Below are positions 7,468 through 34,932 of a DNA stretch of 40,364 nt, piece after piece. The position numbers and the translations under genes are program-made. Each line of letters starts with the position of its first letter. The first letter of the stretch is position 1. Under the pieces are notes generated by a model. The model did not search any database and was not told the DNA's origin. It worked only from the letters and a program-made list of their open reading frames with translations. The DNA is from Phycisphaeraceae bacterium. GTDB taxonomy: Bacteria > Planctomycetota > Phycisphaerae > Phycisphaerales > Zrk34. Location: assembly GCA_028277685.1 (NCBI GenBank), contig JANQFT010000260.1:1-40364 (forward strand), given 5' to 3'.

Positions 7468-8418
7468 GTGAGCGAACTTGGTCAAAACAGTGCGTTGTTA
7501 TCGGCTGCTGAGTTAAATCAGCTTGGCGATCTGATGTTCATCGCGCGGAAGATGGTGGAGGGCGTTTACTCGGGCCGGCATCGCAGCACGCGGCGGGGGC
7601 AATCGGCAGAGTTCTACGACTACCGTGCCTATGCTGAGGGCGATGACCCGCAACGTGTCGACTGGAAAGTATTCGGCCGATCGGATCGGTTGTACGTCCG
7701 GCGACATCGGCACGACGCACAGCTCAACATGCACCTGCTGATCGATCGGTCAGCATCGATGGATTTTTCCGGTTTGGACGCACGCGGAAGAGCGCGGAAG
7801 GATTTCACAAGCAAATGGACCTGTGCCCGACAGCTGGCTGCGGCGTTGGCGCTGTTGGCGGTGCGGCAAACCGATCGCGTGGGCTTGCATGCGTTTGACC
7901 AGGTGCATCAGCAGATCACACCGTCCGGCACGACATCAGAGCACCTGAACAACCTGGTGCAGGCGCTGCAAACCATGCAAACGGGTGGTGCGGGCGATCC
8001 GGTACGGGCTTTGGCGCAAGCTCATGCCACGATCACGCAACGGCATCAACGAAGCGGCCTGCTGATACTGATCAGTGATTTGCAGGACGATGCGGGTACA
8101 TGGCTCAAGGCGATGCATCCATTTCTGCATAGCCACTTTGATATCGTGGTGTTGCACGTGCTGACCCCCCAGGAAACTGATCTGCGCGAGATCGGCGGGC
8201 TACGGCTCATTGATTCAGAAACGCGCGACTCGGTGCGCACCTTCGGGCCATCGATTCAACAGGCATATCGCAAACGTATGCGTGATCATCTTGCATCGCT
8301 TCAAAGGGGGTTTGCCCAGCATCGTGTGGATTATCATCTGATGCTAACGAATGAATCGCCCGTGGAAGCGCTGAGTGCGTATGTGCATCGCCGGGGTGCT
8401 GCGGGGCTGGCCACGTGA
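7468..8418 (+). CDS. DUF58 domain protein (first copy)
   Basis: A 316-residue protein with the DUF58 signature at ~44-74 (GQSAEFYDYRAYAEGDDPQRVDWKVFGRSDRLYV) and a VWA-like fold whose metal site is DRSAS at 93-97. DUF58 proteins are cytoplasmic partners of MoxR ATPases in Bat-type operons; their exact activity is unknown. The GTG start at 7468 is supported by AGGA seven bases upstream. It opens the 15-gene array but is separated from the next gene by ~190 bases, so it may be expressed on its own. It is a divergent paralogue of the DUF58 gene at 15644, which sits in the usual place after moxR. Confidence 0.92.
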   Translation: MSELGQNSALLSAAELNQLGDLMFIARKMVEGVYSGRHRSTRRGQSAEFYDYRAYAEGDDPQRVDWKVFGRSDRLYVRRHRHDAQLNMHLLIDRSASMDFSGLDARGRARKDFTSKWTCARQLAAALALLAVRQTDRVGLHAFDQVHQQITPSGTTSEHLNNLVQALQTMQTGGAGDPVRALAQAHATITQRHQRSGLLILISDLQDDAGTWLKAMHPFLHSHFDIVVLHVLTPQETDLREIGGLRLIDSETRDSVRTFGPSIQQAYRKRMRDHLASLQRGFAQHRVDYHLMLTNESPVEALSAYVHRRGAAGLAT

Positions 8419-8524
8419 ACGGTTTGCCCGAATCTGGTGGTAATGTGTGGTGTGATCGCAATTTCGTTTGAACCGCGCATGGTAAGCTGTCGTCTACATA
8501 TACGAAGGTGGGCGGTCTGTTGGT

Positions 8525-8580
8525 GTAGCGATCTGCTACCATGTACCAGCTAAAGATAGTGCCATCGGTGCCTGACCGAT
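8525..8580 (+). promoter_or_regulatory. Two small inverted repeats before the giant PQQ gene
   Basis: GTAGC (8525-8529) with GCTAC (8535-8539), and ATCGGT (8564-8569) with ACCGAT (8575-8580), lie in the longest gap inside the array (8419-8605). They could mark an internal promoter or operator; no clear -35/-10 pair was found and such short repeats can arise by chance. Confidence 0.25.
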
Positions 8581-8605
8581 CAGGCCGAGGCTTGGAGCAC
8601 GAGTG

Positions 8606-11600
8606 ATGCGCAACGTGTGCCGAACAACGACAGGTAGAGCATGTTTTTCCGCATGGGTTGTTTTGGCCTTGTGCGCTCTGCCATGGGCTGTTGCGCAAGC
8701 TCAGCCAGCACCGCAAGCCGTGGCGGTTCAGGCTGTAGCGGCAACCAAGGATGAAAAACCAGCCGCACCACGCAGCAGCACCATGCTCGATACCAACAGC
8801 GACCTGGATACGCTGCTTGAACGCGCGGCCGCATATCTTGGCAGTGGTCAGTACCGCGAAGGTCTTACCCTCTGCCAGCACGTGGTCGACAAATACGCCG
8901 ACACCCTGACCACCAGTGATGACCGCCACTACCAACCTGCTCGTCTGTACGTTGAGCGGATGATGGCACGTCTGGGCGATGAGGGGTTGGCAACTTATCG
9001 ACTAACTGCTGATGGGCAAGCCAAGGCTTTGCTGAATGGTGAGTCAATCACCGCCACGCGTAATGCAAAAGCGTTGAAGCAGATTGCCGATCGTTATTTC
9101 ATCAGCACCATCGGCGATGATGCCGCCTATTTACTCGGATGTATGCTGCTGGATCAACACGACGACCACGGCGCGCGACGCATGTTCCGAAAGGTGCTGA
9201 ACGATCATCCTGATCCATCTGTCAACCGGGACCAACTGTTACTTCGCCTTGCACTGGTGAATATGCGGCTTGGTGACCAGGGGCGCGCCGAAGCGATTCT
9301 GAAAGACCTTGCTGACCGTGGTAATACGGCATCACGTCAGTTGGCCCTGTTGCGCACTTATGTTGCAGCGTCGAATCATTCCGTATCCGCATCGCCTCAA
9401 ACAGATTGGCCTATCCGATTCGGCAACCCATCTCGAACGGCGCAACTGCCGGATACGCACGACACGGCCGCTCAGGATGGTGATGATCATCTCTGGGCGC
9501 AGGCGTGGGTCTATAAACATCCGCTGCTTGCTTCGTCGCTTCAATGGGGAGGCCACCGAGAATATTACTCCGGTGGACGCAGTCGACTGCAGATGGTCCA
9601 GCGCTGGCGCGAACACCACTGGCTACCGACCACACAAATGCGCTACGCGCAAGATCGGTTGCTCTTCAAAACGCACGCACACCTGGTGTGCATGGATCGA
9701 AACAGTGGCGAAGTTCTCTGGCAACGCCAGGAAGGCGAGGACGAGCCGGTCAGGCAATTTGCTCATTCAGTCACTTCGTATCGCTCGAGCAGTTCGGATG
9801 ATTCAGCGTACCCCAGCACACTGGAAGAGCGCATGCTCTTCGGCGATGAAGTGCGCAAATGCATCAGCATTGTGGATCACACCGTTTTCATGATCGAGCA
9901 TCATCGGCCCAACGCCGGCCGTTCGCGCAACGAACATCAAATGGTGCGTCGCCACATGATGAATCACAATGGCGCCGAAGCCGTAGGCACCCAGTTGTCC
10001 GCCATCGATCTGGATACGGGTAAGCTCAAGTGGCGTTTGGGAAGACAACCAGGGTCCAACACGCCGTTGAATGGAGCCACGTTCCTGGCCACTCCGATCA
10101 AGGCGGATGGTCATCTGCTGTTACCGGTTTTAGAGAATGATGAAGTACGCCTGGTTGCACTCGATCCCAAGTCGGGCAAGTTGCGGTGGAAGACATTTCT
10201 CTGCGCTCCGCGTGAAACGGAACTGCAACCATGGACACCCACCGTCATCGCCTGTGCAGATGGTGAAGCCTACGTGGCCAGCGGCCATGGCGTCGTGTTT
10301 GCGGTCGACCTGCACGGCGGCGCGATGCGCTGGGCAGCGCGATACAAGCGCGATCTGAAAAAGCCGGAAAAGAATCATCACCATTGGGGTGCGAAGCCCG
10401 CAGCCACTCCGCTCGGCTGGGATCAGAATGCCGTGTTCGTTGTGGGTGGTTGGGTGGTCGTGTTGCCGACCGATTCGAAGCACATCATGGCATTCGACCG
10501 CGTGACCGGCAGGCAGCACTATCGCCTGCTGGTTTCCGCACCCAGGTATGCGCTGGGTGTGGTGGAGGGCGGGTTGATCGTGGCGACCAACGATGCGCTG
10601 TACAGCTACAACGCGCATAACGCCAAGCTTCAATGGCAAGCGCCGCTGGATGTTTCTCCGGGTCGCGCTGCTCTTTCGCGCAGTGTGATCTATGTGCCAC
10701 AGGGCAACCGCATCGTCCAACTGGATGCGCGGGGCGGAAGGCGGTTGGCCGAAACGCGGGCCGTCACATCACGAGACGATCCGTTGGGCAATCTGCTTTG
10801 TGATGGCAGGCGAATCTATGCCGCGGGTATGGAGTACGTTTATGCCGTCATGGACACGCAGCACCTTCTGGCTGACATAACCCGCAAAATCAAGATTCAG
10901 CCAAACATCGCGGCATACCACGCCAGGGCACGCACCCATCGGCAGGTCGGACAGACAGATCAAGCGATTCATGATCTGCGATTGGCGATCAACGCTCCCG
11001 GAAAAGAAGAAGCAAGAGATGCTGCGCGTGGGGAACTGCTCGACGAACTGATCAATACGCTTGCCACATCCGAACAGCCGCAGCAGGTGTTGGAAGAAGC
11101 AGATCAGATCGCAAAGACCAACACGCAGAAGTTACGTGTTGACTTGGCCCGGGCGGATCACGCTGCACGTTCAGGTGCGCCGATTGAAGCCGCCAGAACC
11201 TATCTGAATCTGCTTGCGGAAGAAGGCCAGACCACCATTTCGCTATCGCCCAACAGTCAGGCGTCGGTGCGTGCGATCGCGGGCGCTCGGCTAGCTGACC
11301 TGATGCAAACGCATCAGGCGGTTATCTCGCCGTTGGTTCACCTGAACGCGCAGCAGGCGTGGGATCAGGCGTTCGCGCATGGTGTTGACGATACGAATCG
11401 CTACCACAGACTGATGGCGATCGCACGTCAGTTCCGCGGGTCAATCCAATCCCGGCACGCGATGATTCAAATCGCTCAACTGGCGGCAAAGGTTGGACAG
11501 TTTGAATCAGCAGAAGCCGTGCTGAGCAGGTGGGCCCGGTCATCGGATGCTCGTGAGGCGGCCACCGCGCGATGGGCGCTGGGCAATTTGTATGCTGATC

Positions 11601-13471
11601 GCGGTTGGCGGCACATGGCGCGATTGACGTTTCAAGCTGCCATCGCAGATCATGCGGACATTCAGATCGATCACACCGAGCCGGCCTACACGGTGGGTGA
11701 GCTTGCCGGTGAAAAGCTGAGCCAACTCGCTGGCAACACCATCACCGACACGGTAACAGACCTCAGCTTTGGCGGACCGCCCTGGCGGCGAACATGGTTT
11801 GAACGGGGCTATGGCAGTCGCACGATCGATTTGATTCAACACGAAGCCGACCCCTCTACATTCCTGCGCAATCATGTGTTGGTCTTCATTCGGCACGGAC
11901 GTTCGCGCCTGGTGTGTCGACGTGCGGACACAGGCAGGATCGCATGGCAACTGCCATTGATGCAGTACGCCGCGCGAGACATGCAGATCGATCAGTACGG
12001 CCGTCTGCATGCAGGTGGTCGATGGGAACACATGCTGGTTCTGCCCGCGGGCAAGGGGTTGGCAGCGTATAGTCTGCTTACCGGCAAGCGCATATGGCAA
12101 AGCGATCGTGTCAGCGAAGATGATGCCAAGACCTCTACTGCTCATCCCGCCCAGAACCAACACGCCCAGTTGCTTCAGTCGCGCTCTGATCATCGAACAA
12201 AAGCCGGTCTTTCCACGGTGTCGGTGGGGGATGGCCTGGTGGTGCAGCAAATCGTCGCCAAAGATATGACCGAGATGGTGCAGGTGCACGATGCGGCCAC
12301 CGGCCAGGTCATCTGGCGACGCTTTTTTAATGACGAAGCGATTGATGGCGTTCGCATCGCATGTGGTGTGGTGAATGTGATCACCGGTGGAGGCACTGAA
12401 CTTGCCTCTTACGACCGTGCGACAGGTCAGTTGCTTTGCCGTGCGAAACTGCCCGACCTAGACAGTGATTCCCCCGTCATCTGGACCGAACGTGGCGTGG
12501 TGTGCAGGAACCAACGTGACCGGGAAACCAAACTGATTCAACTACCTGCCGGTAAAGTTGCCTGGACCGTGCGCTCACGCAGTTGGGTCCGCTTAAGGCA
12601 ACTCAATGATCAAACAGGTTGCTTGTATTCCAGCGATGGGGTGAAGATCTTCAATCTGGATACAGGTCATGTGATAGCCTCGCTTGATAGCGGTGTGGTT
12701 GGACGCAACCTGCAGGACGTTGCGATGACGCGCGACGGCCTTGAACTCTACACGTTGGGTTGGGGTAACCGGGGCGGCCAGACGTTGCGCATCGTGCAGA
12801 TCAAAAGTGGCAAGCAACTTACTTCCATTGATTTTGGCAATTCCTATGGGCAACGTATCTCAGCGCAGACGCTGGCAGACGCCGGCGAATTCATCCCCTG
12901 GGTGGAACGTATAGAGCGTAAGGATGGATCGCACAACGCGAATCGGGCGATAGCGATCTACCGCAAGCGCACAGGCAAACGGTACACCAAGCATGCGCTT
13001 CCCACTCCTCTCGGTAATGGACACCTTCGTTACACCCACGAGGCGCCTCAGGTGATTAACGGAGTGCTGATCGTTAACAGCAACGAAGGACAGATGGGTT
13101 TTGTCCACGATGACAATCCGTTACCCGCCGGGGGTGTGGTTCACACAGTGCAACCGGGAGAAACGCTCGCCAGCATCACCCGTAAATACTATGGCGATGA
13201 GAAACACCTCACGCGCATCACCAAAGCGAACCCCGACGAGAAGATTGGGCCGTTGAATAAGATCACCGCGGGAACGAAGCTGAAAATTCCCGGTCGTAAG
13301 GAAGAACCTGAAGAGTCATCCACGTCAGGCACAATCACCGTGCAGGATAAGGATGGTGTTCGATATTTGATCACCGACCAGGATACGCCATTCAGTGAGA
13401 TCGCACGGGAGATTCAAAAGGCGCATCGTGATGGCGTGAAGGTCCAGGTAAAGATGAGGGGACAGGAATGA
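8606..13471 (+). CDS. Giant secreted TPR / PQQ-like propeller protein with LysM domain
   Basis: A 1621-residue protein. Residues 1-32 are a Sec signal peptide (VVLALCALPWAVAQAQ). Residues ~50-220 are TPR-like helices (LLERAAAYLGSGQYREGL, DDAAYLLGCMLLDQHD). A first PQQ-like beta-propeller spans ~250-760, shown by repeats such as NSGEVLWQR, DTGKLKWRL, SGKLRWKTF and VTGRQHYRL. A second helical TPR part is ~765-1060, and a second propeller is ~1070-1500 (DTGRIAWQL, LTGKRIWQS, ATGQVIWRR). A LysM domain is at ~1513-1563 (HTVQPGETLASITRKYYG), which in known families binds peptidoglycan or related glycans. A coupled tail follows. PQQ-like repeats here more probably serve as a scaffold than as a quinoprotein enzyme. 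The ATG at 8606 follows GGAG by eight bases. The stop overlaps the next start (ATGA). It is a paralogue of the protein at 18875, which lacks LysM. Confidence 0.93.
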   Translation: MRNVCRTTTGRACFSAWVVLALCALPWAVAQAQPAPQAVAVQAVAATKDEKPAAPRSSTMLDTNSDLDTLLERAAAYLGSGQYREGLTLCQHVVDKYADTLTTSDDRHYQPARLYVERMMARLGDEGLATYRLTADGQAKALLNGESITATRNAKALKQIADRYFISTIGDDAAYLLGCMLLDQHDDHGARRMFRKVLNDHPDPSVNRDQLLLRLALVNMRLGDQGRAEAILKDLADRGNTASRQLALLRTYVAASNHSVSASPQTDWPIRFGNPSRTAQLPDTHDTAAQDGDDHLWAQAWVYKHPLLASSLQWGGHREYYSGGRSRLQMVQRWREHHWLPTTQMRYAQDRLLFKTHAHLVCMDRNSGEVLWQRQEGEDEPVRQFAHSVTSYRSSSSDDSAYPSTLEERMLFGDEVRKCISIVDHTVFMIEHHRPNAGRSRNEHQMVRRHMMNHNGAEAVGTQLSAIDLDTGKLKWRLGRQPGSNTPLNGATFLATPIKADGHLLLPVLENDEVRLVALDPKSGKLRWKTFLCAPRETELQPWTPTVIACADGEAYVASGHGVVFAVDLHGGAMRWAARYKRDLKKPEKNHHHWGAKPAATPLGWDQNAVFVVGGWVVVLPTDSKHIMAFDRVTGRQHYRLLVSAPRYALGVVEGGLIVATNDALYSYNAHNAKLQWQAPLDVSPGRAALSRSVIYVPQGNRIVQLDARGGRRLAETRAVTSRDDPLGNLLCDGRRIYAAGMEYVYAVMDTQHLLADITRKIKIQPNIAAYHARARTHRQVGQTDQAIHDLRLAINAPGKEEARDAARGELLDELINTLATSEQPQQVLEEADQIAKTNTQKLRVDLARADHAARSGAPIEAARTYLNLLAEEGQTTISLSPNSQASVRAIAGARLADLMQTHQAVISPLVHLNAQQAWDQAFAHGVDDTNRYHRLMAIARQFRGSIQSRHAMIQIAQLAAKVGQFESAEAVLSRWARSSDAREAATARWALGNLYADRGWRHMARLTFQAAIADHADIQIDHTEPAYTVGELAGEKLSQLAGNTITDTVTDLSFGGPPWRRTWFERGYGSRTIDLIQHEADPSTFLRNHVLVFIRHGRSRLVCRRADTGRIAWQLPLMQYAARDMQIDQYGRLHAGGRWEHMLVLPAGKGLAAYSLLTGKRIWQSDRVSEDDAKTSTAHPAQNQHAQLLQSRSDHRTKAGLSTVSVGDGLVVQQIVAKDMTEMVQVHDAATGQVIWRRFFNDEAIDGVRIACGVVNVITGGGTELASYDRATGQLLCRAKLPDLDSDSPVIWTERGVVCRNQRDRETKLIQLPAGKVAWTVRSRSWVRLRQLNDQTGCLYSSDGVKIFNLDTGHVIASLDSGVVGRNLQDVAMTRDGLELYTLGWGNRGGQTLRIVQIKSGKQLTSIDFGNSYGQRISAQTLADAGEFIPWVERIERKDGSHNANRAIAIYRKRTGKRYTKHALPTPLGNGHLRYTHEAPQVINGVLIVNSNEGQMGFVHDDNPLPAGGVVHTVQPGETLASITRKYYGDEKHLTRITKANPDEKIGPLNKITAGTKLKIPGRKEEPEESSTSGTITVQDKDGVRYLITDQDTPFSEIAREIQKAHRDGVKVQVKMRGQE

Positions 13472-14538
13472 TTCGCACAACACGATTCATCTGGCATGCC
13501 TACGTGGTGTGGGGCGCGGTGGCCATCACGCTGGTGCCGACCGTCGCCCACGCGCAATCTGTACCCACCCGACCGGAGATGATCACCGCACGTACTGAGC
13601 AATCGATCAAGGCAGCCTTGGCGCACCTTGCCCGTACGCAGAGTCGTGATGGTTCCTGGCGCAGCGGTTCGTATCACGGTACGTATCCATGCGTGATGAC
13701 ATCATTGGCGGGCCTTGCGCTGATGGCCGGCGGCAACACACCGGTGGAGGGTCGGTACGCAGCCAACGTACGCAAGGCGGTCGATTACGTTCTTAGTTCG
13801 GCCGACCCCGAGCGCGGCTTGATTGCGCGTGCGGGTGAAGAATCAAGACCCATGTACGGGCATGGTTTCAGCATGTTGTTCCTGGCGGAAGCCTACGGCA
13901 TGGAGCGCGACACCCGTCGCCAGCAACGTATTCGCACGGTGTTGGAAAAGGCCATCAAGCTCACCAGTCAATCACAATCACGGGCAGGTGGATGGTACTA
14001 CGGTCCCGATTCAAACAGCGATGAAGGCTCCGTCACCGTGACTCAGATTCAGGGCTTGCGCGCCTGCCGTAATGCCGGCATCAAAGTGCCCAAGAGCGTG
14101 ATTGATAACGCCTGCACTTACATCGAAAACAGTGCAAACAAAGATGGTGGCATTCGGTACCAAGCACGCGGCGGCGGCAGCAGCCTGCCCGCAATCACAG
14201 CCGCTGCCGTCGCGGTGATGTACAACGCTGGCGAATACGAAAACCCCGTCGCATTGGGTGCACTGAAGTATCTCAAGGCCCGAATGAAACGACGTGGCCC
14301 CACCAGCGCATTTGGTGGCCACAAGTTTTACTCATTGCTGTACGCTTCTCAGGCCATGTACCTCAGTGGTCAAGAGAACTGGAAATCGTTCTTCCCCCCA
14401 GTTCGCGATGACCTGATCCGCACGCAAAACCGTGATGGCAGTTGGCATGGTGATGGCGTGGGTACCACGTACGGCACGGCCATTGGTCTGCTGATTCTGC
14501 AACTCCCTTATCGTTATCTCCCTATTCTTCAGCGCTGA
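13468..14538 (+). CDS. Secreted squalene-cyclase / prenyltransferase-like alpha-alpha repeat protein
   Basis: A 356-residue protein with a signal peptide (residues ~1-29, ending AHA-Q) and repeats of the terpenoid-cyclase toroid fold: QSRDGSWRSGSYHG, AGGWYYGPDSNSDEGSVTVTQIQGLRA, KDGGIRYQ and NRDGSWHGDGVGTTYGTAIGLLIL. The DGSW/GGW blocks are the QW-like motif. There is no DxDD or other cyclase catalytic motif that I can see, so it is probably a binding or structural protein rather than a cyclase. Its ATG overlaps the upstream stop by four bases and it is preceded by a purine-rich site (GAGGGGACAGGA). Export plus position between a LysM propeller and MoxR suggest a periplasmic role in this system. 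Confidence 0.88.
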   Translation: MIRTTRFIWHAYVVWGAVAITLVPTVAHAQSVPTRPEMITARTEQSIKAALAHLARTQSRDGSWRSGSYHGTYPCVMTSLAGLALMAGGNTPVEGRYAANVRKAVDYVLSSADPERGLIARAGEESRPMYGHGFSMLFLAEAYGMERDTRRQQRIRTVLEKAIKLTSQSQSRAGGWYYGPDSNSDEGSVTVTQIQGLRACRNAGIKVPKSVIDNACTYIENSANKDGGIRYQARGGGSSLPAITAAAVAVMYNAGEYENPVALGALKYLKARMKRRGPTSAFGGHKFYSLLYASQAMYLSGQENWKSFFPPVRDDLIRTQNRDGSWHGDGVGTTYGTAIGLLILQLPYRYLPILQR

Positions 14539-14561
14539 ATGTGCGTTGGCAGGAGTGATCA

Positions 14562-15641
14562 ATGACTGAACCCCAAGCACCCGGCACTGATACGCAGTCG
14601 TTAGAGCAAGATGACCTGCAGGCGATCGACCAATTGCAGCAGGCGCGCCAGCAGTTACGTGCGGAGCTGGCCAAAGTGATCGTCGGGCAAGAGAAGGTGA
14701 TCGATCAGATCCTTATCGCGATTCTTGCGCAGGGACACTGCTTGTTGGAAGGTGTGCCGGGTTTGGCGAAGACGTTGATGGTTTCAACTCTGGCCCGCGC
14801 ATTCGACATGTCATTCAGTCGCATTCAGTTCACACCCGACCTGATGCCTTCGGACATTACCGGCACTGAAGTGATTCATGAAGATAAAGCAACCGGCGAC
14901 CGGCAATTTAAGTTTCTTAAAGGTCCGGTGTTTAACAACGTGATTTTGGCCGACGAGATCAACCGCACCCCGCCCAAAACCCAGGCCGCGATGCTGGAAT
15001 CGATGCAGGAACGCCAGGTGACCATCGGCGGTCAACGGTTCGAGCTGCCCTCGCCATTTTTCGTTTTGGCAACGCAGAACCCCATTGAACAGGAAGGCAC
15101 GTATCCGCTTCCCGAAGCGCAGCAGGATCGCTTCATGTTCAAAGTGTTTGTTGACTATCCGAGTTACGATGAGGAGTACCTTGTGGCAGAGCGCACCACT
15201 GCGATGTTCGATCCACAGGTACAGCCGGTGCTCACCACAGATCAGGTGAAAGCGCTGCAACAGTTGGTGCGCCGCGTGCCGGTGGCACCGCATGTGATTC
15301 ACTACGCACTAAGGCTGGTTCGCGCAACACGCGTTGGCGAGACGGATGTCCCCGACTTCGTGAACGAGTGGGTCAGTTGGGGGGCAGGCCCGCGCGCGGT
15401 GCAATATCTGTTGTTGGGGGGCAAGGCGACTGCCGCGCTGGATGGACGCACCTGCGTAACCACCGATGATGTGAAATCAATCGCACATCCAACCTTACGG
15501 CACCGCATCATCACAAACTTCAACGCCGAATCAGAAGGTATCACGGCCGACCGCGTCACTGATCGGTTGCTCAGCACCATCAGTGAAGCTGCCGGCGATG
15601 AAGCAGTACCCGCAGACGTTCAACGTGCGCTGAACAGCTAA
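14562..15641 (+). CDS. MoxR-family AAA ATPase
   Basis: A 359-residue cytoplasmic ATPase. Walker A is GVPGLAKT (64-71), Walker B is ILADEINR, with [10 protein letters not shown] and [26 protein letters not shown], all hallmarks of MoxR. MoxR proteins act as chaperone-like ATPases that load metals or remodel VWA-domain partners. The Shine-Dalgarno CAGGAG is about seven bases before the ATG. The next gene, a DUF58 protein, starts three bases after its stop, the classic moxR-DUF58 pair, so the products are likely coupled. Confidence 0.96.
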
Positions 15642-15643
15642 TC

Positions 15644-16573
15644 ATGTCTGATTCGCGACGATACCTTGATCCCGCAACGCTGAACAAGATCAGCCGTCTG
15701 GATCTGCGCGCCAGGCTGGTGGTCGAAGGTTTCATCACCGGCTTGCACCGCAGTCCGTATCACGGGTTTGCCGTGGAGTTTGCCCAGCATCGACCTTATG
15801 TAGCCGGTGATGAAATCAAGCACATTGACTGGAAAGTATGGTCGAAAACAGACCGGTTTTATGTCAAGGAATATGAGGAAGAGACGAATCTGAAATGCAC
15901 GATTCTTCTGGATGCCAGTGCATCCATGAGTTACGGGCAACAGGACCAGGGCAAGCGAAGAGGCCTGGGCAAGTTCGATTACGCCGCCACCTGTGCCGCC
16001 TGCCTGGCGTACATGCTTCAACGGCAGCAGGATGCAGTCGGGCTGGTCACGTTCGATGAACAGGTGCGACTGAATCTTCCTGCCAGTTCACATCCATCAC
16101 ACATCAAGCTTCTCGTTCACGAGTTGGAACAGACGCAACCCCGTGAGAAGACGGATATCGCGGAAGTGCTTCCCGCATTAGCCGAGCAGCTACGCCAGCG
16201 TGGATTGATGGTGCTGATCAGCGATCTGTTTGTCGACATGGATCGCCTGACCGAAGCCCTGCGCCAGTTTCGGCATCGTCGGCACGAAGTGGTCGTCTTT
16301 CACGTGATGCACCATGATGAACTGACATTCCCGTTTGAAGACAACACGCAATTTGAAGGTTTGGAAATCGACGCACAGGTACTTACCGAGCCGCGCGCAT
16401 TGCGGAAATCATACCTGGCGGCGAAAGACAAGTTCGTGACCGATGTGCGTCGGTGTTGTGCGGGGGCGGGCATCGATTACGTTCCGCTGAGCACAACCGA
16501 CCCACTTGATGCGGCGTTGGCCAGCTATCTGGCATTTCGCCAGAAGACACGCCGCGCGGTACGTCGACACTAA
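15644..16573 (+). CDS. DUF58 domain protein (second copy)
   Basis: A 309-residue protein. DUF58 signature: FAVEFAQHRPYVAGDEIKHIDWKVWSKTDRFYVKEYEEE at ~42-80. The VWA-like metal site DASAS is at 90-94, followed by MSYG. No Shine-Dalgarno sequence is obvious, so translation probably depends on the preceding moxR stop three bases upstream. It sits between moxR and a BatA-type gene, the usual Bat arrangement, and differs clearly from the DUF58 protein at 7468 (for example the insert QQDQGKRRGLGKF after the metal site). Confidence 0.95.
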   Translation: MSDSRRYLDPATLNKISRLDLRARLVVEGFITGLHRSPYHGFAVEFAQHRPYVAGDEIKHIDWKVWSKTDRFYVKEYEEETNLKCTILLDASASMSYGQQDQGKRRGLGKFDYAATCAACLAYMLQRQQDAVGLVTFDEQVRLNLPASSHPSHIKLLVHELEQTQPREKTDIAEVLPALAEQLRQRGLMVLISDLFVDMDRLTEALRQFRHRRHEVVVFHVMHHDELTFPFEDNTQFEGLEIDAQVLTEPRALRKSYLAAKDKFVTDVRRCCAGAGIDYVPLSTTDPLDAALASYLAFRQKTRRAVRRH

Positions 16574-27283: not shown

Positions 27284-29137
27284 ATGAAGCATCACATACT
27301 CATCCTGATCATCGCCATGCTGATGTCTGTGGTGGCCCACGGTCAAAAACCATCGAGCAACACTGGCACGCCACTTGGGGTGAAGCAGGCGCACGTACGG
27401 CAATTACTCATCGAAATGGATCAGCGATTTGCCAAACTGGCCAAAGCACTGGAAAGTTCCGAGCCTCAGCACGCTGAGCGTCTGACCGAAGCGCTTCGAC
27501 AAAGCAAGAAGATGTTGCTGCAGCATCGTGTGGATCAGATTACCCAATTGCTCAACGACGATTCCCTCGACGCTGCAACACGCAAGCAGGCGCAGCTCAT
27601 CGCAGACTTGATGCAGTTGATAGAAATTCTGACCGCCGAGGATGACCTCGACGAAGCGCTCGCAGAAATCGACCGACTGGAACAATGGAAGCGAGAGATT
27701 GACAAACTCATCCAGAAGGAAAAACAACACAAGCAGGATGCACAAACTTCAGCAGATCCAGACAGCGCACTCAAGCAATTGGATGGACATATTGCTGCCC
27801 TCAAGGATTTGATCAAACGTCAGAAAAAACTCGTAGATGACACGCAAACCCAGCGTACCAAGGGCATCGAAGGTTTGGGAAAGCTGGCTGATGAACAACG
27901 TCACCTGCGACATCAGACACAGGCATTAACCAAGGCTCTGGGCGATAAGCACGACAAAGCATCGCCCACCGCGCCGTCTCACCAGACCAAGCCGGGCAAG
28001 GCAGCGCTGTCGAAGGCGAGTGAGCACCAGCATAACGCAGAGAAAAATTTGGGTAAGGGCAAAGGTAAGCAGGCAGAGGATGACGCCGGCCGCGCGCTGG
28101 ATCAGATGCGCAAAGCCTTACATCAACTTGAAAGAAAACGTAGCCGCATCGCGCGTCTTCCTAAAGACCACAATGCGCAACTCGCACGCGAACAAGAAAA
28201 AACAGCCGACAAAGTGGGCGATCTGTCCAAGCAGATGGATGAGGCCGGAAAAAGTGCATCGCAGGCCAACCCAGGGAGCGGCAGCCAATCAGGTCAATCC
28301 CAACAAACACCCGGTCAACAGAATGTGCAACAGGCCCAGAAACAGATGAAACAGGCGTCGGCCAAGCTGGAGAAACAGCAACCGAACGAGGCGACGGATG
28401 ATCAACAGAAAGCAATCGATCAGCTCACTGAGGCACAAAAGCAGATCGAGCAACGCCTGGCGCAACTTCGAGAGCAAATGCAGGAAGAGGCGCTCGCGGC
28501 CTTGGAGCATCGCTTCATTGAGATGTTGGAACGACAGAAGCCAGTCACCCAGGCCACGCTCGATCTTGATCGCGCCCGAACAAGCCGCCCCGCAGATGAA
28601 AGCGGGGAATACCCCCTCACTCGCCCTGAACGCCTGCTGTGCGCGAAGCTTGCCGAGGAAGAGAGGGCCATCGCCCATCTCGCTACCAAAGCGCAGCGCA
28701 TCATCATTGAAGATGGCTCAACGGTCGTATTCCCCCGTATCGTTGAGCAGCTTATCGGCGATCTGGAAGCCGCGCACGATTTCTGTGCTCGCGAAGACAG
28801 TGGGTCGTACACCCAGTACCTGCAACAGCAGATCGAACAAACGCTTGAAGAACTGATCGAAGCTGTCCGGCGCGCCCAACAGCAACAACAGCAGGGCAAT
28901 CGACCATCCGGCAATGCCCAGCAACAGGACTCACCTCAGGAACCGCTTGTGCCGGAGTCTGCGGAGTTGAAGCTCCTTAAGTCCGCCCAGTTACGCGTCA
29001 ACCGCTCCACCACGAGTTTTGATCAGGCACGTAAAGGCGAAGAACTCTCTGCCCCCATGGCGAAGGAAGTGAATCGTATCGCCGACCGTCAGGATCAGGT
29101 GCGGCAAATCGCCGAGAACCTGGCGGAGAATCGTTAG
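27284..29137 (+). CDS. Exported coiled-coil protein
   Basis: A 617-residue protein with a signal peptide (residues ~1-20, ending AHG-Q) and a body that is almost all alpha-helical and charged, with long heptad stretches (LAEIDRLEQWKREIDKLIQKEKQ, QMKQASAKLEKQQPNEATDDQQ, AQKQIEQRLAQLREQMQEEALAALEHR). A Gln-rich, low-complexity part is near residues ~530-550. It has no enzymatic motif. The last ~40 residues (TTSFDQARKGEELSAPMAKEVNRIADRQDQVRQIAENL) resemble the end of similar planctomycete proteins. It probably serves as a periplasmic spacer or scaffold. The Shine-Dalgarno GGAAAG is about ten bases upstream; 74 bases separate it from the preceding gene. Confidence 0.82.
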   Translation: MKHHILILIIAMLMSVVAHGQKPSSNTGTPLGVKQAHVRQLLIEMDQRFAKLAKALESSEPQHAERLTEALRQSKKMLLQHRVDQITQLLNDDSLDAATRKQAQLIADLMQLIEILTAEDDLDEALAEIDRLEQWKREIDKLIQKEKQHKQDAQTSADPDSALKQLDGHIAALKDLIKRQKKLVDDTQTQRTKGIEGLGKLADEQRHLRHQTQALTKALGDKHDKASPTAPSHQTKPGKAALSKASEHQHNAEKNLGKGKGKQAEDDAGRALDQMRKALHQLERKRSRIARLPKDHNAQLAREQEKTADKVGDLSKQMDEAGKSASQANPGSGSQSGQSQQTPGQQNVQQAQKQMKQASAKLEKQQPNEATDDQQKAIDQLTEAQKQIEQRLAQLREQMQEEALAALEHRFIEMLERQKPVTQATLDLDRARTSRPADESGEYPLTRPERLLCAKLAEEERAIAHLATKAQRIIIEDGSTVVFPRIVEQLIGDLEAAHDFCAREDSGSYTQYLQQQIEQTLEELIEAVRRAQQQQQQGNRPSGNAQQQDSPQEPLVPESAELKLLKSAQLRVNRSTTSFDQARKGEELSAPMAKEVNRIADRQDQVRQIAENLAENR

Positions 29138-29149
29138 GATAGTCTGTTT

Positions 29150-30232
29150 ATGTTCAACCCAAGAATGATCATCCTGACTGCCGCGTTAAGTCTGTTACTG
29201 GTTGATATGGCTTTCGCCCAACCACGGGTTGTCGAGCTGGTGAAACCAGAGGCAAAGAAGCCGTTGCCCCGTGTGATCACCACGCCCCCCAAACTCACGG
29301 CCGTCTGCGACGCTTTTGCCAGGCATGTTGCCTCGCTTGATCTCCCGCAAACATCTCGAGCGACGGCTCAGCGCATCATTGCTCAGCAGAACACCGAAAC
29401 GATCACGGATTCGCTTCGCGTGCTCTATCCGCCATTCAAAGCGGCCTCGAAATCCCTTGGGGATGAAAAGCTGGATCGCGCGGTCAATCAACTAAAACCA
29501 CTCCTCGCCCACGATGATCCTTACCTTGCAGCATACGCCCACTACTTTATTGCACAATCGCATGTGATGCAGGAAGACTATGAGGCAGCCCGCCCTCTGC
29601 TGAAAGAGGTCATCGGTCCAAGGCTCAGCTACACATTGCACTCCGGCGAAGCGGCGTTCATGCTGGGGCTGTGTCACGCCAAGTTGCTCGACCGCGATTT
29701 TGCCATTGCCACACTGAAAGAATTCTGTGTGAAGTATCCCGATGCTTCTGAGCGCATGATTGTCGGTGCGCTGCATTTGATCGAGCAACTCTCAGTGATT
29801 ACCGAAGGTACTTTGGGTGACGTGCAGGAGCGCATGGAATACTCGCGTAGGCGGCTGCAACTTCAACGCACTGCCAAGCGTACGCAGAATGAACAAAAAC
29901 GCATCATTGGTATTCTGGATAAGCTCATTCAGGAAGCCGAGCAGCGCGAGCAACAATGCAGCGGAGGTGGATCAGGCGAGGGTGCGGGAGGTGGGGCTGG
30001 GGGCGCAGCGGGAGGCGGAGCGGGTGGTGCGCAACAATCAACCGCTCCGCCGGGGCCGGCGCATACCGGACCCGTGCGACGCACACACCGAGGCAATCCG
30101 GAGGAACAGTGGGGCGCCATGCCGGATAAGCAACGTGAACAAGTGCTTAACGCACTCAAGGCTCGCTATCCCGAACGTTACCGCGCGCTGGTGGAACAGT
30201 ACTATCGATCGCTACAGGAAGAAAAGCCATGA
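29150..30232 (+). CDS. Exported TPR-like protein with glycine-rich linker
   Basis: A 360-residue protein with a signal peptide (residues ~1-24, ending AFA-Q). A TPR-like helical middle (~110-200: AHYFIAQSHVMQEDYEAARPLLKEVI, AAFMLGLCHAKLLDRDFAIATLKEF) is followed by a coiled-coil and a Gly/Ala-rich linker at ~268-300. It ends with a short conserved module (WGAMPDKQREQVLNALKARYPERYRALVEQYYRSL). That C-terminal module recurs, as I recall, in planctomycete exported proteins; its partner is unknown. AGGA lies upstream. Its stop overlaps the next gene's ATG by four bases. Confidence 0.8.
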   Translation: MFNPRMIILTAALSLLLVDMAFAQPRVVELVKPEAKKPLPRVITTPPKLTAVCDAFARHVASLDLPQTSRATAQRIIAQQNTETITDSLRVLYPPFKAASKSLGDEKLDRAVNQLKPLLAHDDPYLAAYAHYFIAQSHVMQEDYEAARPLLKEVIGPRLSYTLHSGEAAFMLGLCHAKLLDRDFAIATLKEFCVKYPDASERMIVGALHLIEQLSVITEGTLGDVQERMEYSRRRLQLQRTAKRTQNEQKRIIGILDKLIQEAEQREQQCSGGGSGEGAGGGAGGAAGGGAGGAQQSTAPPGPAHTGPVRRTHRGNPEEQWGAMPDKQREQVLNALKARYPERYRALVEQYYRSLQEEKP

Positions 30233-31413
30233 GGTCCGTCCTGCTTGCTTGCGTTTTTGTGTTGGTGTTATCTGAATCGATCAGAGCAGACCATGTGGTG
30301 CTGCTCAATGGCCAAACCGTTGCCGAGAAGGTCAGTGCTATTGCAGACGGCAAAGTGCGCTGCGGGAAGGAAACGTATGATCTTCAGCAGATGCGAAGCA
30401 TTGTTTTTGACGTGGCCACCAACCCCGTACCACTTCGCGCCAAACGTGTCTATCTGAATGATCAAAGTGTGTTGATTGCTTCGAAGGTTGGCGTAGCGGA
30501 TCAGCAATGTACGATCGACTGGACATATGGCGAATCGGTTAACTGGCCCACGGCCGATATTGCCGCGATTCTTTTAGCCCCTCTTTCAGCCGATGCCCGG
30601 GGCAGGCTCAAGCCCGAACCCGTCTTTACCGAAGCACTTGCTGACCCCAAGCGAACTCAGGATCGGTTGCTCGTGTTTTCCAAAGAGAGCATTACCGCTG
30701 TCGACGGTGCACTCAGCTTGCTGACCGATGAGCAGGCAACATTCGTCTGGCAAGACAAACCACGCAAGATCAAACGCTCCAAACTCTATGGTATGGTGCT
30801 GGCGACGAGTAAAACGGCTGTGGATCGCACGGGATGGTGTCATGTCAAACTGAATGATGGCTCGCAGCTTTGGGGCCGCTCCCCTCAGATGAAGGACGGC
30901 ATGTTCACCATGCAACGCGAAGCGGGTACTTTCACATTCCCCGCTAAATCAGTGGTCCGCATTGATGTGCGTTCAGACCGGATGATCTTTTTGTCCGACA
31001 TGACCCCCGTCTCAGTAGAAGATGAAGCGTTGTTCACGTTCAACGGATGGCGGCGTGATGCCAGCACCTTGGGCCGCCCCCTGACACTCAATAAGAAGGT
31101 CTACACCAAAGGGCTGGGCACCCACGCCCCATGTCGACTGACATATGCGCTTGATGACCGATTCGACACATTTGCCGCGGTGATCGGCATCGACGATGCA
31201 ACGTTCGGCAAGGGCGACTGTGTGTTCAAGCTGGAGTTGGATGGCAAGACGATTTTCGAGCAACGCATACGTGGTACCGATGAACCGCTGCCCGTTCGGG
31301 TATCCATTGCCGGGGGTAAGTCGTTGGCATTGGTCGCTGAGATCGGCGAAGACCTTGATCTGGCCGATCACGCCAATTGGGCGGATGCGCGGCTTGTTCG
31401 CGAGAAGCAATAA
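30229..31413 (+). CDS. Exported protein with NPCBM carbohydrate-binding-like domain
   Basis: A 394-residue protein with a signal peptide (residues ~1-20, ending IRA-D). Its first ~250 residues are beta-rich and form two repeats of a short unit (VVLLNGQTVAEKVSAIADGKVRCG; CHVKLNDGSQLWGRSPQMKDG) of the type used in LPS-assembly-like beta modules. The C-terminal domain (~265-392: KVYTKGLGTHAPCRLTYAL, DTFAAVIGIDDATFGKGDCVFKLELDGK, KSLALVAEIGEDLDLADHANWADARL) is an NPCBM (novel putative carbohydrate-binding module), a family tied to glycan binding. It overlaps the TPR gene by four bases and is followed after three bases by the active HtrA gene. The likely role is to hold the system on an envelope or extracellular glycan; this is inferred. 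Confidence 0.85.
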   Translation: MRSVLLACVFVLVLSESIRADHVVLLNGQTVAEKVSAIADGKVRCGKETYDLQQMRSIVFDVATNPVPLRAKRVYLNDQSVLIASKVGVADQQCTIDWTYGESVNWPTADIAAILLAPLSADARGRLKPEPVFTEALADPKRTQDRLLVFSKESITAVDGALSLLTDEQATFVWQDKPRKIKRSKLYGMVLATSKTAVDRTGWCHVKLNDGSQLWGRSPQMKDGMFTMQREAGTFTFPAKSVVRIDVRSDRMIFLSDMTPVSVEDEALFTFNGWRRDASTLGRPLTLNKKVYTKGLGTHAPCRLTYALDDRFDTFAAVIGIDDATFGKGDCVFKLELDGKTIFEQRIRGTDEPLPVRVSIAGGKSLALVAEIGEDLDLADHANWADARLVREKQ

Positions 31414-31416
31414 GCC

Positions 31417-32832
31417 ATGCGCATTCAACATCGCACATTCATGGTCTTTCTGTTGGCTGTATGCATGTGTTTTGAACAGGCTTCAGGCCAGCATGCGCCA
31501 ATGATCACCTCAGATGAGCTGGCGGTCGTACAAGCGGCTGAAGAAAAGCGCATTGCCCTGATCAACAAACTCCAGCCCACAGTCGTCGCGGTGTACGGCA
31601 AAGATCGCCAAGGCTCCGGCAGTGCGGTCGTCGTTACGCCCGACGGATTGGCGCTAACCAACTATCATGTCGTGCAACCCACTGGCGGGTCGGGTTGGGC
31701 AGGTTTGTCCGATGGCAAACTGTATCCGTGGAAAGTGGTTGGTCAGGATCCCGGCGGCGATGTCGCGCTCATTCAATTATCCGGTAAGAGCACTTTCACA
31801 TATGCCAAACTCGGCGACTCGCGCAAAGCTCGCGTGGGTCAGTGGGTGATGGCGATGGGCAATCCGTTCATGCTTGCCGATGATCACACACCCACGGTTA
31901 CGTTGGGCATCGTCAGTGCGGTTCATCGCTTTCAGCCAGGCGCAGGTGGCAACATGCTGGTGTACGGCGATTGCATACAGATTGATTCGTCCATCAATCC
32001 AGGCAACAGCGGTGGCCCTCTGTTTGATATGCAGGGTACATTGTTGGGCATCAACGGCCGCGGCTCGTTTGAAGAACGCGGTCGTGTCAACGTTGGGGTG
32101 GGATATGCCATCACCATTGAGCAGATACGTAATTTCTATGCTGACCTGCTGGCGACGAAGATCTGCCAACACGCCACATTGGATATGACATTCTTCACGC
32201 GCGAAGACGGCGTGATCTGCGATGCGATCGACTACGGTCAGAATCCGCCCCTGGCGCGCGCGGGCATGATGCCGGGCGATCGACTGCTGAGTTTTGATGG
32301 CCATCCGATTCATCATGCGAATGATTTACTGAACCGATTGAGTGTTCTCCCTGCGGGTTGGCCGGTTGAAGTGGAATTCATCTCCGGTGATCAGCGGCGA
32401 ACGGTCACCATCACCCCGGCGGCGCTGCCTTACATCACCCCCAAACCACGGAACAAACCCAAAGAGAAAAAGCCGCGTTTCCCGTGGTGGCCAACGCAGT
32501 TACGCAAGCCCCCACAAAAACCCGGTGAAATCACTGATCGCGCGATGAACCGGCGTAACGCCCAGCAGATATTGAGGCAACTCAAACCTGTCGATCACGG
32601 CAAAGCCGATGCCGCGACAAAAGCATTCCTCAGCGCATACGACCCCAGCCGAACATTGATGTTCAACAAACTCATACTGGAAGGCGGCGAGCGGCTTTGG
32701 GGTCACCGCGCCTACCGCATCAGCGCTGCGACCAGTGAGGGGAAAAACTTTCGCATCTGGATCAGTGTGTTTGACAAATCTGGCCTGCAATTGGAGTCGC
32801 ATCTCATGAAAGTTGAGGTGCTTGCCCCATGA
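31417..32832 (+). CDS. HtrA/Deg-type serine protease with PDZ domain (active triad)
   Basis: A 471-residue trypsin-like protease with a signal peptide (~1-24). The catalytic triad is complete: H84 in LTNYHVV, D115 in PGGDVALIQ, S198 in NPGNSGGPLFD. A PDZ domain follows (~270-345: ARAGMMPGDRLLSFDGHPIHHANDLLNRL), then a Pro/Lys linker (KPRNKPKEKKPRFPWWP) and a C-terminal domain of ~110 residues without known motif. It would degrade or process misfolded envelope proteins. It begins three bases after the NPCBM stop, and its stop overlaps the next gene by four bases. Confidence 0.93.
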   Translation: MRIQHRTFMVFLLAVCMCFEQASGQHAPMITSDELAVVQAAEEKRIALINKLQPTVVAVYGKDRQGSGSAVVVTPDGLALTNYHVVQPTGGSGWAGLSDGKLYPWKVVGQDPGGDVALIQLSGKSTFTYAKLGDSRKARVGQWVMAMGNPFMLADDHTPTVTLGIVSAVHRFQPGAGGNMLVYGDCIQIDSSINPGNSGGPLFDMQGTLLGINGRGSFEERGRVNVGVGYAITIEQIRNFYADLLATKICQHATLDMTFFTREDGVICDAIDYGQNPPLARAGMMPGDRLLSFDGHPIHHANDLLNRLSVLPAGWPVEVEFISGDQRRTVTITPAALPYITPKPRNKPKEKKPRFPWWPTQLRKPPQKPGEITDRAMNRRNAQQILRQLKPVDHGKADAATKAFLSAYDPSRTLMFNKLILEGGERLWGHRAYRISAATSEGKNFRIWISVFDKSGLQLESHLMKVEVLAP

Positions 32833-33839
32833 TTCGTCTCATTTATGCATGTGTGATCTGTCTATGCATCGCCACTTATGCCTGTGCGGAAGAATCGACT
32901 CCACCCCCATTCGCCAAGGCAGCCGAGAATGCCCAGGCCCGCTGCGTCAGAATTTATGGTGCCACCATCGGTCGTGAACGTGGATATGCAACGGGTCTGA
33001 TCGTTTCGCCGAACGGGCACATTCTTACCGCAGAGGGAATCTATCTTGGCGGCGACCGAATTCGGGTCGTGATGCCCGATGGTCAGGTTCAACTGGCTCG
33101 CGTGCTTCGGCGAAACGAAAACATCCAGGTTGCATTGCTGAAGATTGATCAACCCACGTCGGTGTATTTCGATGTTCCCCCCAAGCCGATCATCCAACCA
33201 GGTGACTGGACCATCGCGGTGAGTAACTGCTTCAAAGTGGCGGGCAACGATGAACCGCTGTCGGTGAATCTTGGCATTATGAGTATGCGGGCAGAAATCG
33301 ATACCCGCCGTCGCGCACTCGATTTCGACGTGGCCGGTGAAATCATCCTGATTGATGCCATTACGTCGAACCCGGGTTCTCCGGGTGGGGCGGTGGTCAA
33401 CTACGACGGTGAACTGGTCGGAATGATTGGCAAGCTGTTGCACAGTGAGTCAACGGGAACGCGTTTGAACTATGTTATTCCATCAGATCTTTTGCGGTTG
33501 TTCATCGATGGTAAGCCCGTACCCGTACGCACATCCGATGCTCCTGACGTGCAGAGCGACGGTATGCCATATGTCGGCCTTCGCTTGTTTCGAATGGCAG
33601 GAAAGCGAGCCCCGGCCTATATCGACCGGGTTGAGTCTGGTTCGCCCGCAGCGTCAGCCGGACTGAAAAAAGACGACCTGGTGTTGGCAGTGGACGACAC
33701 AATTGTCCGCAATGTGGCACATTGTGACGAGGTGCTGTCAAAACTCAGGCCAGGGCAGCGCGTGACCATGATTATCAAACGCAAACAACAAGCACTGAGC
33801 CTGGCACTGACCGTGGAGCGGAAGGAACGCGATGAGTAA
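32829..33839 (+). CDS. HtrA-like pseudoprotease with PDZ domain
   Basis: A 336-residue exported protein (signal peptide ending TYACA-E) with the trypsin-like fold of HtrA. All three catalytic positions are replaced: the histidine position is G70 (VSPNGHILTAEGIYL), the aspartate position is Q100 (ENIQVALLKID), and the serine position is P185 (NPGSPGGAV). The PDZ domain at ~250-330 is intact (SGSPAASAGLKKDDLVLAVDDTIVRN). It therefore cannot act as a serine protease but could bind substrates or regulate the active neighbour. It overlaps both neighbours (four bases upstream, eight downstream), so translation is coupled. Confidence 0.9.
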   Translation: MIRLIYACVICLCIATYACAEESTPPPFAKAAENAQARCVRIYGATIGRERGYATGLIVSPNGHILTAEGIYLGGDRIRVVMPDGQVQLARVLRRNENIQVALLKIDQPTSVYFDVPPKPIIQPGDWTIAVSNCFKVAGNDEPLSVNLGIMSMRAEIDTRRRALDFDVAGEIILIDAITSNPGSPGGAVVNYDGELVGMIGKLLHSESTGTRLNYVIPSDLLRLFIDGKPVPVRTSDAPDVQSDGMPYVGLRLFRMAGKRAPAYIDRVESGSPAASAGLKKDDLVLAVDDTIVRNVAHCDEVLSKLRPGQRVTMIIKRKQQALSLALTVERKERDE

Positions 33840-34932
33840 AGCGATATGGCTTAACGTGGCTGTATGCATCGTGGTGTTGGTTACGGCCGAAGCCGGGTTA
33901 TGTAATGATCCCGCGCGATTGGCGCCCCGCGCATTCCGTGTGGCCGTGGCTCAGGTAAAACCTTCCGTGGTGACCATTGAGACATATGGCACCGTGAGCG
34001 TGGCCGGTGGTAAGCGTGGCACACGATTCGGCGCTTTCAGCAGGCCCGGTGAGGGCCCAACCACCGGGTTGATTGTCAGCGCAAATGGCCACATTGTCAC
34101 CAGCACTTTCAATTTCATCCGCAAGCCAAGTGTCATCACCGTGGTGCTGTCAGATGGCTCACAGCATGTGGCCAAGCGCATCGGTACCGATGAAACTCGC
34201 AAGATTTGTGTGTTGAAGATTGATCCGCCAACACCTCTGCCGGTGCCTGTTTTCGTGCCCGCAGACAGAGTGCGCGTGGGCCAATGGGCCATCTCCATGG
34301 GTGTGGGTTACGGTGGAGATCAGTCGGCCATATCCGCTGGAATCATCAGTGCGGTAAACCGTGTGTCGGGTCGCGCGGTACAAACAGATGCCAACATCAG
34401 CCCCGCCAATTACGGTGGACCGCTGCTCGATATCAACGGACGTGTCATCGGTGTGTGCGTACCTCTTTCACCCGCAGGCGAGCAAACGATCGCAGGCGCA
34501 GAGTGGTACGATTCAGGCATCGGCTTCGCAGTGCCGCTTGTCGATCAACACGACATTCTCACGCGGCTGAAGAACGGCGAATCGATTCGAGCCGGCAAGA
34601 TGGGTATTGTTGCTGCCCCACTTCCGATGGGGCAGGGCGTTCGATTAACGCAGGTGGCCAAGAACAGCCCCGCAAGCAGGGCTGGGCTGCAGGCGGACGA
34701 CATCCTGATCGGAATCGGAAAGCTGCGCGTGATTGACATGCTGTCCTTACGTGTCGCGATGGGGCGTTATGCTGCCGGCGATGAGGTGGTGGTTGAGTTC
34801 AAACGCGATGGACGCGAAATGTCGGTGAAGATTACGTTGGAAGCAGGCCCATTCGATTATGTCCATGAAGCAACCGATGCAGCAACGGCGGAGCCATCTT
34901 CAGACGACGCTAAAACACCCAAGCCCGAATAA
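33832..34932 (+). CDS. Second HtrA-like pseudoprotease with PDZ domain
   Basis: A 366-residue exported protein (signal peptide ~1-24) related to the two preceding genes. The histidine position is F93 (VSANGHIVTSTFNFI), the aspartate position is I125 (TRKICVLKIDPP), and the serine position is Y194 (SPANYGGPLLD). The motif shape and the PDZ domain (~265-345: AKNSPASRAGLQADDILIGIGKLRV) are kept, but the triad is gone. AAGGA precedes the ATG; it overlaps the upstream gene by eight bases. It is the last gene of the 15-gene array; no terminator is obvious after its stop. Confidence 0.9.
   Translation: MSKAIWLNVAVCIVVLVTAEAGLCNDPARLAPRAFRVAVAQVKPSVVTIETYGTVSVAGGKRGTRFGAFSRPGEGPTTGLIVSANGHIVTSTFNFIRKPSVITVVLSDGSQHVAKRIGTDETRKICVLKIDPPTPLPVPVFVPADRVRVGQWAISMGVGYGGDQSAISAGIISAVNRVSGRAVQTDANISPANYGGPLLDINGRVIGVCVPLSPAGEQTIAGAEWYDSGIGFAVPLVDQHDILTRLKNGESIRAGKMGIVAAPLPMGQGVRLTQVAKNSPASRAGLQADDILIGIGKLRVIDMLSLRVAMGRYAAGDEVVVEFKRDGREMSVKITLEAGPFDYVHEATDAATAEPSSDDAKTPKPE

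Follow-up and report, generated by a model that had tools for sequence, protein, structure and literature searches.

In operons of the Bat and Cmd types, a MoxR ATPase is encoded beside DUF58 and VWA proteins, and these operons are the closest described systems to the array of fifteen genes (g1–g15) analysed here, which lies at positions 7468–34932 of a 40,364-nucleotide stretch of DNA from a Phycisphaeraceae bacterium (contig JANQFT010000260.1 of assembly GCA_028277685.1; the whole stretch is called the window below). Mutants of the Rhizobium leguminosarum genes RL3499–RL3502 (cmdA–D) are described, as relayed in PMC3893208 and PMC5700661, as having envelope and morphology or shape defects. 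The VWA protein NorD is the partner on which the MoxR-type protein NorQ acts, and a finger-like extension of NorD reaches into the pore of NorQ (PMC13036017). In magnetotactic bacteria the dead HtrA-type protein MamO activates proteolysis by MamE (PMC4794232). The envelopes of Planctomycetota are unusual, which lends interest to candidate machines for building them. No paper describing the operon reported here was found in the open-licence literature searched, and the main text of a paper on the essential genes of Planctopirus limnophila does not mention MoxR, VWA or HtrA.

Conservation of gene order across the Planctomycetota

To obtain relatives of the array, g9 was used as the only query against 198 genomes of the class, up to 40 kb were fetched around 31 good matches, and all other gene families in these neighbourhoods were detected with profiles. 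Since the selection was on g9 only, the neighbouring genes are unbiased evidence; since the matches retained were the better-scoring ones, they reveal the form of the operon where it is present, and not its frequency. One match (G045) is a lone g9 homologue, while the remaining 30 neighbourhoods span nine families, and the order g2-g3-g4-g5-g6-g8-g9-g10-g11-g12 is constant among them although the g9 identity is roughly 20–44%. Where both genes of a pair are present, they are adjacent, on the same strand and in order in 25/25 (g2–g3), 26/26 (g3–g4), 27/27 (g4–g5), 27/27 (g5–g6), 27/28 (g6–g8), 28/29 (g8–g9), 28/30 (g9–g10), 29/29 (g10–g11) and 29/29 (g11–g12) cases, followed by 18/18 for g12–g13, 16/16 for g13–g14 and 15/15 for g14–g15. 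Thus a DUF58 gene comes directly after moxR in all 27 relatives with both genes, and the gap between the two is 2 bp in the window. The g2 gene is present in 26 of the 30 neighbourhoods, g7-type copies counted, and in the rest it was cut off by contig ends or not found. Most of the genomes compared are metagenome-assembled genomes (MAGs), the lengths and gaps in high-GC relatives are approximate because their open reading frames (ORFs) were called from the first possible start, and the E-values of the custom profiles derive from small searches.

The distribution is wide. Relatives of g3 were detected by profile in 258 of 294 genomes of the phylum and relatives of g9 in 181 of 199 genomes, often several per genome, with paralogous operons included in both counts. 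The same core string was observed in genomes outside the class, as well as in named MAGs of Phycisphaeraceae, Phycisphaerae and other Planctomycetota. Complete genomes of the phylum also contain the arrangement of the window, and the isolate Planctomyces sp. SH-PL62 carries the operon on its 81 kb plasmid pPL62-3 (L186, L187), split over the origin of the record and mostly annotated as hypothetical, in the order PQQ, SIMPL, g3-like, MoxR, DUF58, BatA, VWA, g9-like, g10-like, g11-like and NPCBM. In G066, G104, G131 and three genomes of another class, a variant form also occurs in which g3 is preceded by genes for a short PQQ protein and a SIMPL-domain protein. In G216 (L148 and L107), half-size PQQ genes and toroid genes, two of each, alternate upstream of moxR, an arrangement suggestive of tandem duplication of the g2–g3 pair. 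One MAG contig titled Alphaproteobacteria (L097, JANQQE010000032.1) carries the planctomycete operon, and its title looks wrong.

The synteny indicates that the array is a real operon whose order is fixed across Planctomycetota, and not a peculiarity of the genome from which the window comes. The sequence-only reading, an earlier description of the window made from its letters, had named a lack of co-transcription together with scattered homologues in related genomes as the sign of coincidental neighbours; the search returned instead a gene order kept in 30 relatives of nine families. The same reading regarded the gene set as enlarged here, and the extra genes are indeed present, but the comparison indicates that such a set is what the operon normally has in the phylum. 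Two members are restricted: a g1 partner beside the operon is clear only in the close relative L067, and a g7-type second giant after g6 is confined to the window's family and its nearest relatives.

The ORFs and refined junctions agree with the earlier description of fifteen consecutive plus-strand genes with short gaps or overlaps and two exceptions of about 190 and 74 bases. After the start codons of g2, g7 and g8 were refined (to 8606, 18875 and about 22569), the junctions from g1 to g15 measure +187, −4, +23, +2, +32, +1, −8, +9, +74, +12, −4, +3, −4 and −8 bases, that is, 12 of 14 fall within −8 to +32, with outliers at g1–g2 and g9–g10. The domain content, comprising two DUF58, one MoxR, one BatA-N/VWA and one VWA protein, two TPR/PQQ giants, a squalene-cyclase-C-like, a TPR and an NPCBM protein and three trypsin/PDZ proteins, was likewise recovered (Table 1). 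Simple scans at both ends of the array gave no promoter or terminator signal above shuffled sequences. A dnaK (HSP70) gene lies on the same strand at 5083–7107 of the window, 360 bp upstream of g1; it was rejected as an operon member, as no DnaK homologue was found in the 31 other neighbourhoods.

Table 1. Genes of the array in the window, with predicted products and the matches on which they are based (TM, transmembrane helix; Ig, immunoglobulin; MIDAS, metal-ion-dependent adhesion site)
Gene	Predicted product	Position	Strand	Basis
g1	DUF58 (VWA, DxSxS kept); lineage-restricted, probably peripheral	7468..8418	+	Pfam DUF58 7e-38
g2	Exported TPR and PQQ/BamB-like propeller giant, C-terminal LysM	8606..13471	+	Pfam/NCBIfam, neighbourhood comparison
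g3	Exported (alpha/alpha)6-toroid protein, squalene-cyclase-like fold, no DxDD	13468..14538	+	Pfam SQHop_cyclase_C 9e-10, AlphaFold, Foldseek
g4	MoxR AAA+ ATPase, Walker A/B intact	14562..15641	+	AAA_3 1.4e-64 (216 bits); PDB 2r44 1e-81
g5	Cytoplasmic DUF58 (VWA) partner	15644..16573	+	Pfam; MIDAS DxSxS invariant in 28 orthologues
g6	BatA-N double-TM anchor, VWA, GATase-like region, C-terminal TM	16606..18873	+	PF07584 1.1e-15, TIGR02226 1.5e-17
g7	Second exported TPR/PQQ giant	18875..22576	+	Pfam, neighbourhood comparison
g8	Membrane VWA and GATase-like protein (CmdD/BatB-like); start uncertain, 22545 ATG possible	22569..25028	+	Profile matches in PDB: BatB 3ibs, GATase-like 3soz; homology to Sinorhizobium CmdD-like protein
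g9	Three TM, three Ig-like domains, coiled coil; probable N-terminal half of DUF4175-like protein	25038..27209	+	AlphaFold, Foldseek, fused homologues
g10	Exported coiled coil; probable C-terminal half of DUF4175-like protein	27284..29137	+	Weak PF13779 match, fused homologues
g11	Exported TPR protein	29150..30232	+	Pfam/NCBIfam
g12	Exported protein, C-terminal NPCBM domain	30229..31413	+	NPCBM 7.9e-32
g13	HtrA/Deg protease, H-D-S triad intact, one PDZ	31417..32832	+	Pfam trypsin-like and PDZ; alignment
g14	Pseudo-HtrA, triad lost, PDZ kept	32829..33839	+	Pfam, alignment
g15	Pseudo-HtrA, Ser replaced by Tyr (SPANYGG), PDZ kept	33832..34932	+	Pfam, alignment

The conserved core and its predicted exported partners

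Family matches, intact motifs and gene adjacency agree with the Bat-type MoxR–DUF58–VWA core that had been proposed. The Walker A and B motifs of g4 are kept in 28 orthologues, its closest PDB entry being one deposited as an uncharacterized protein, and the MIDAS D and S of g6 are invariant in 29. The MoxR–DUF58–DUF4159–GATase operon of Sinorhizobium meliloti matches g4 (397 bits), g5 (73 bits) and g8/g6. From gene order, we take this operon to correspond to R. leguminosarum RL3499–RL3502. Together with the BatB match of g8, these homologies place the core in the Bat/Cmd type, and by sequence it is homologous to the cmdA–D envelope-integrity operon of Rhizobium and resembles the Bat operons. 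A Bat operon in the strict sense, with BatD and BatE genes, was rejected, as Pfam scans of all 15 genes gave no match to either family. In the S. meliloti Ak57 pSymB record (L184, 11601–13715), the fourth Cmd-like gene lies unannotated in two frames, probably owing to a frameshift or sequencing error.

Hydropathy and N-termini, a heuristic used in place of SignalP, predict g1, g4 and g5 to be cytoplasmic, lacking export signals, g6, g8 and g9 to be membrane proteins with three helices each, and g2, g3, g7 and g10–g15 to carry an export signal each, which accords with the exported nature earlier ascribed to most of the other genes. Large parts of g6, g8 and g9 (VWA, GATase-like, Ig and coiled coil) are flanked by transmembrane helices, and the helix positions and loop charges of g6 and g8 fit a predicted periplasmic VWA, in agreement with the periplasmic VWA of the BatA-like Borrelia protein BB0173 (PMC5700661).

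No Pfam or NCBIfam family was assigned to g9. Its AlphaFold model (predicted local distance difference test score, pLDDT, 88; predicted template modelling score, pTM, 0.54) comprises N-terminal helices, Ig-like sandwiches and a long coiled coil, and Foldseek returned generic Ig-domain chains as its sole matches. A second arrangement, (MoxR–)DUF58–BatA–VWA–long protein–TPR–g3-like–NPCBM-like, was observed elsewhere in the same genomes and in related ones, with one protein of about 1130–1410 aa in the place of g9 and g10. In most of these long proteins, the stretch from about residue 5 to residue 740 is covered by the g9 profile and what follows it by the g10 profile. In addition, g10 matches positions 512–743 of the DUF4175 profile PF13779 (E 1.6e-5; 23.6 bits, below the cut-off of 27.3), while the fused homologue L176 reaches 32.3 bits, above the cut-off, in a match to profile positions 184–337 that lies in its g9-like part. 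This collinearity indicates that g9 and g10 together correspond to a single DUF4175-like protein, of which they form the two halves and which is fused in the sister operon. The DUF4175-like membrane protein and the coiled-coil protein that the sequence-only reading listed separately are these halves. The export signal predicted for g10 itself is what a separated periplasmic half would need. Further sister-type MoxR/DUF58/VWA operons lie on contigs 233 and 244 of the window's genome (L178, L180), and on contig 244 two tandem MoxR genes precede the DUF58 and BatA-like genes.

The g3 model (pLDDT 88, pTM 0.85) is an alpha/alpha toroid, and Foldseek places it nearest to squalene-hopene cyclases, class II terpene cyclases of other kinds and glycosidases with an alpha/alpha barrel, at identities of 9–18%. 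Across 18 orthologues, about 60 columns do not vary, among them His132, Asp185, Glu186, Trp176 and His285, and for this reason a ligand or substrate site is likely, the ligand perhaps being a glycan. The DxDD motif is not among the invariant columns; a squalene cyclase function was therefore rejected for want of the catalytic motif, and 'squalene-cyclase-like' holds for the fold only. Three tandem g3-like toroid genes are located on contig 83 of G039 (56350–60054), apart from the g9-bearing operon on contig 100 of that genome.

The propellers of g2 and g7 are interleaved with TPR and most closely resemble BamB. Their match to the methanol/ethanol dehydrogenase model extends over about 100 residues with 30–41 bits against a cut-off of 480, and no vicinal Cys-Cys of the kind found in pyrroloquinoline quinone (PQQ) dehydrogenases was present in either, for which reasons a PQQ-dependent dehydrogenase identity was rejected. 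The LysM domain, considered as a general glycan anchor, was found by motif search in the window and G023 only among 25 orthologues of g2. As it is restricted to the window's family, it cannot carry the idea of glycan anchoring, whereas NPCBM could.

The HtrA trio

The three trypsin/PDZ genes were aligned from up to 19 genomes of the class, and the alignment agrees with the earlier reading of one active and two dead HtrA proteins. His, Asp and Ser are all present in 18/18 complete g13 copies of the class and in two from other classes, the nineteenth copy having been called from an internal start. None of 17 g14 copies keeps any triad residue, with Ser replaced by Ala, Pro or Gln, and none of 18 g15 copies does either, Tyr taking the place of Ser within SPxxYGG; the same Tyr occurs in 2/2 copies from other classes (20/20 overall). 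The triad is thus lost in all 35 g14/g15 copies of the class and in three separate genes of other classes, and two genomes of other classes share the pattern of active g13 with dead g14 and g15. Moreover, active g13 and dead g14 form one polypeptide in G022, G148 and G239. The conserved pattern and these fusions are strong evidence that g13–g15 form a functional protease–pseudoprotease unit. Pseudoproteases genetically bound to an active protease, and covalently fused to it in three genomes, offer a testable case. The trio is present in 19 of the 30 neighbourhoods and in some other classes.

Function of the operon and comparison with known systems

We give about an even chance to the reading that the array is a planctomycete-expanded operon of the Bat/Cmd type that encodes an ATP-powered complex for assembling or maintaining the envelope, to which a protease/pseudoprotease module is coupled. 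The operon probably builds or maintains the cell envelope; a gene order that persists over much of the phylum, in several paralogous copies per genome, points to an envelope function of a core kind, and a trans-envelope assembly or quality-control machine, as first suggested from the window, is the most economical interpretation. By analogy with NorQ–NorD and RavA–ViaA and their membrane targets, MoxR–DUF58, on the cytoplasmic side, would act on the short loops that g6, g8 and g9 expose there, and might switch or assemble their periplasmic VWA/Ig parts. These parts would hold an exported scaffold, made of the g10 coiled coil, the g11 TPR protein, the g12 NPCBM protein, the g3 toroid and the g2 propeller/TPR protein, which would contact the envelope glycan via NPCBM and perhaps the toroid. 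Components that have failed or are in surplus might be cleared by the HtrA trio, in which the two dead copies would serve as substrate adaptors or activators of the live one, and the end role would be envelope integrity, as for cmdA–D in Rhizobium. More tentatively, and in our view doubtfully, the operon may represent an unnamed class of ATP-powered trans-envelope machine, near-universal in Planctomycetota, in which a cytoplasmic MoxR–VWA motor drives periplasmic assembly or repair on the envelope glycan and the protease is regulated by two obligate pseudoproteases. The array also supplies the poorly understood Bat/Cmd MoxR–DUF58 operons with a set of candidate exported partners.

Some points weigh against an envelope machine. 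Bat operons elsewhere have been tied to aerotolerance or oxidative stress, and not to envelope integrity. In 11 of the 30 neighbourhoods no HtrA trio was found, one of these loci having ended first, so the trio is a frequent add-on and not part of the core, and its quality control would not be obligatory.

Among the alternatives, the machinery might power the assembly or secretion of a specific surface structure such as a fibre, coat or stalk, with the NPCBM and propeller proteins as cargo or structure. The predicted export of most genes and the giant repeat proteins with Ig and coiled-coil parts would suit a structure, and a role in the formation of viral tails is known for the MoxR-family protein p618 and its partner (PMC3893208); nevertheless, the conserved string holds no secretion channel, pilin or sortase, and its near-universal, multi-copy distribution suggests housekeeping over one appendage, which leaves this idea unlikely. 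Rather unlikely, too, is a Bat-like oxygen or oxidative-stress complex, in which MoxR and VWA proteins would shield or repair proteins when oxygen is present, and any effects on the envelope would be secondary. It draws on the 'aerotolerance regulator' N-terminus of g6, the g8 profile matches to BatB and an aerotolerance-related PDB protein, and the response of BB0173 and its surrounding genes to oxygen (PMC5700661), but it has to reckon with the missing BatD and BatE matches, and with an operon that holds no conserved redox enzyme and is dominated by scaffold and glycan-binding domains.

Very unlikely is a maturation system for a periplasmic PQQ-type dehydrogenase like the methylotroph mxa cluster, with the propeller giants as clients: MoxR, DUF58 and VWA genes do adjoin PQQ-repeat propellers, and MoxR proteins are known maturation factors (PMC3893208), but the dehydrogenase match of g2 and g7 is partial, as described above, and their TPR-interleaved, mostly BamB-like propellers are accompanied by no cytochrome in the conserved string. 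The MoxR-vWA-beta-propeller 'ternary' biological-conflict systems (eLife 2020, PMC7159879) likewise combine MoxR, vWA and propeller/TPR proteins in one neighbourhood and are reported in planctomycetes, and their PF20030 bpMoxR profile matches g4 above its cut-off (44.8 bits). AAA_3, however, fits g4 far better at 216 bits, and in those systems the vWA protein has its own C-terminal propeller, whereas g5, g6 and g8 have none and the window encodes vWA and propeller proteins separately. As the gene string is constant over nine families with no rapid effector swapping, and PADLOC matched generic proteases only, we regard a conflict system as highly improbable. That the genes are coincidental neighbours with no shared function might be argued from the lack of promoter and terminator signals, but a chance neighbourhood is ruled out by the synteny in 30 divergent relatives, which goes far beyond chance, and this explanation has a negligible probability.

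Set beside the known systems, the envelope operon proposed here resembles each in part. The MamE/MamO pair also joins an active HtrA-type protease to a dead paralogue, though the trio has two dead copies, a single PDZ in each protein, other triad replacements and no magnetosome genes. NorQ–NorD and RavA–ViaA also pair a MoxR AAA+ protein with a soluble VWA partner that acts on membrane complexes, while their VWA families are other than those of the window. With the Bat operon of Bacteroides, Leptospira and Borrelia, the window shares MoxR, DUF58, BatA-N VWA proteins, a TPR protein and the similarity of g8 to BatB; it differs in adding the Ig/coiled-coil DUF4175-like pair, NPCBM, the toroid, the propellers and the HtrA trio to a core without BatD or BatE matches. 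The third gene of the alphaproteobacterial operon ends in DUF4159, which is absent from the window operon, and the S. meliloti record, unlike the window, has no g2, g3 or g10–g15 beside its Cmd-like operon. Even so, S. meliloti (CP090106) and R. leguminosarum cmdA–D have MoxR, DUF58, a BatA-N membrane protein and a VWA/GATase membrane protein in the same order as the window.

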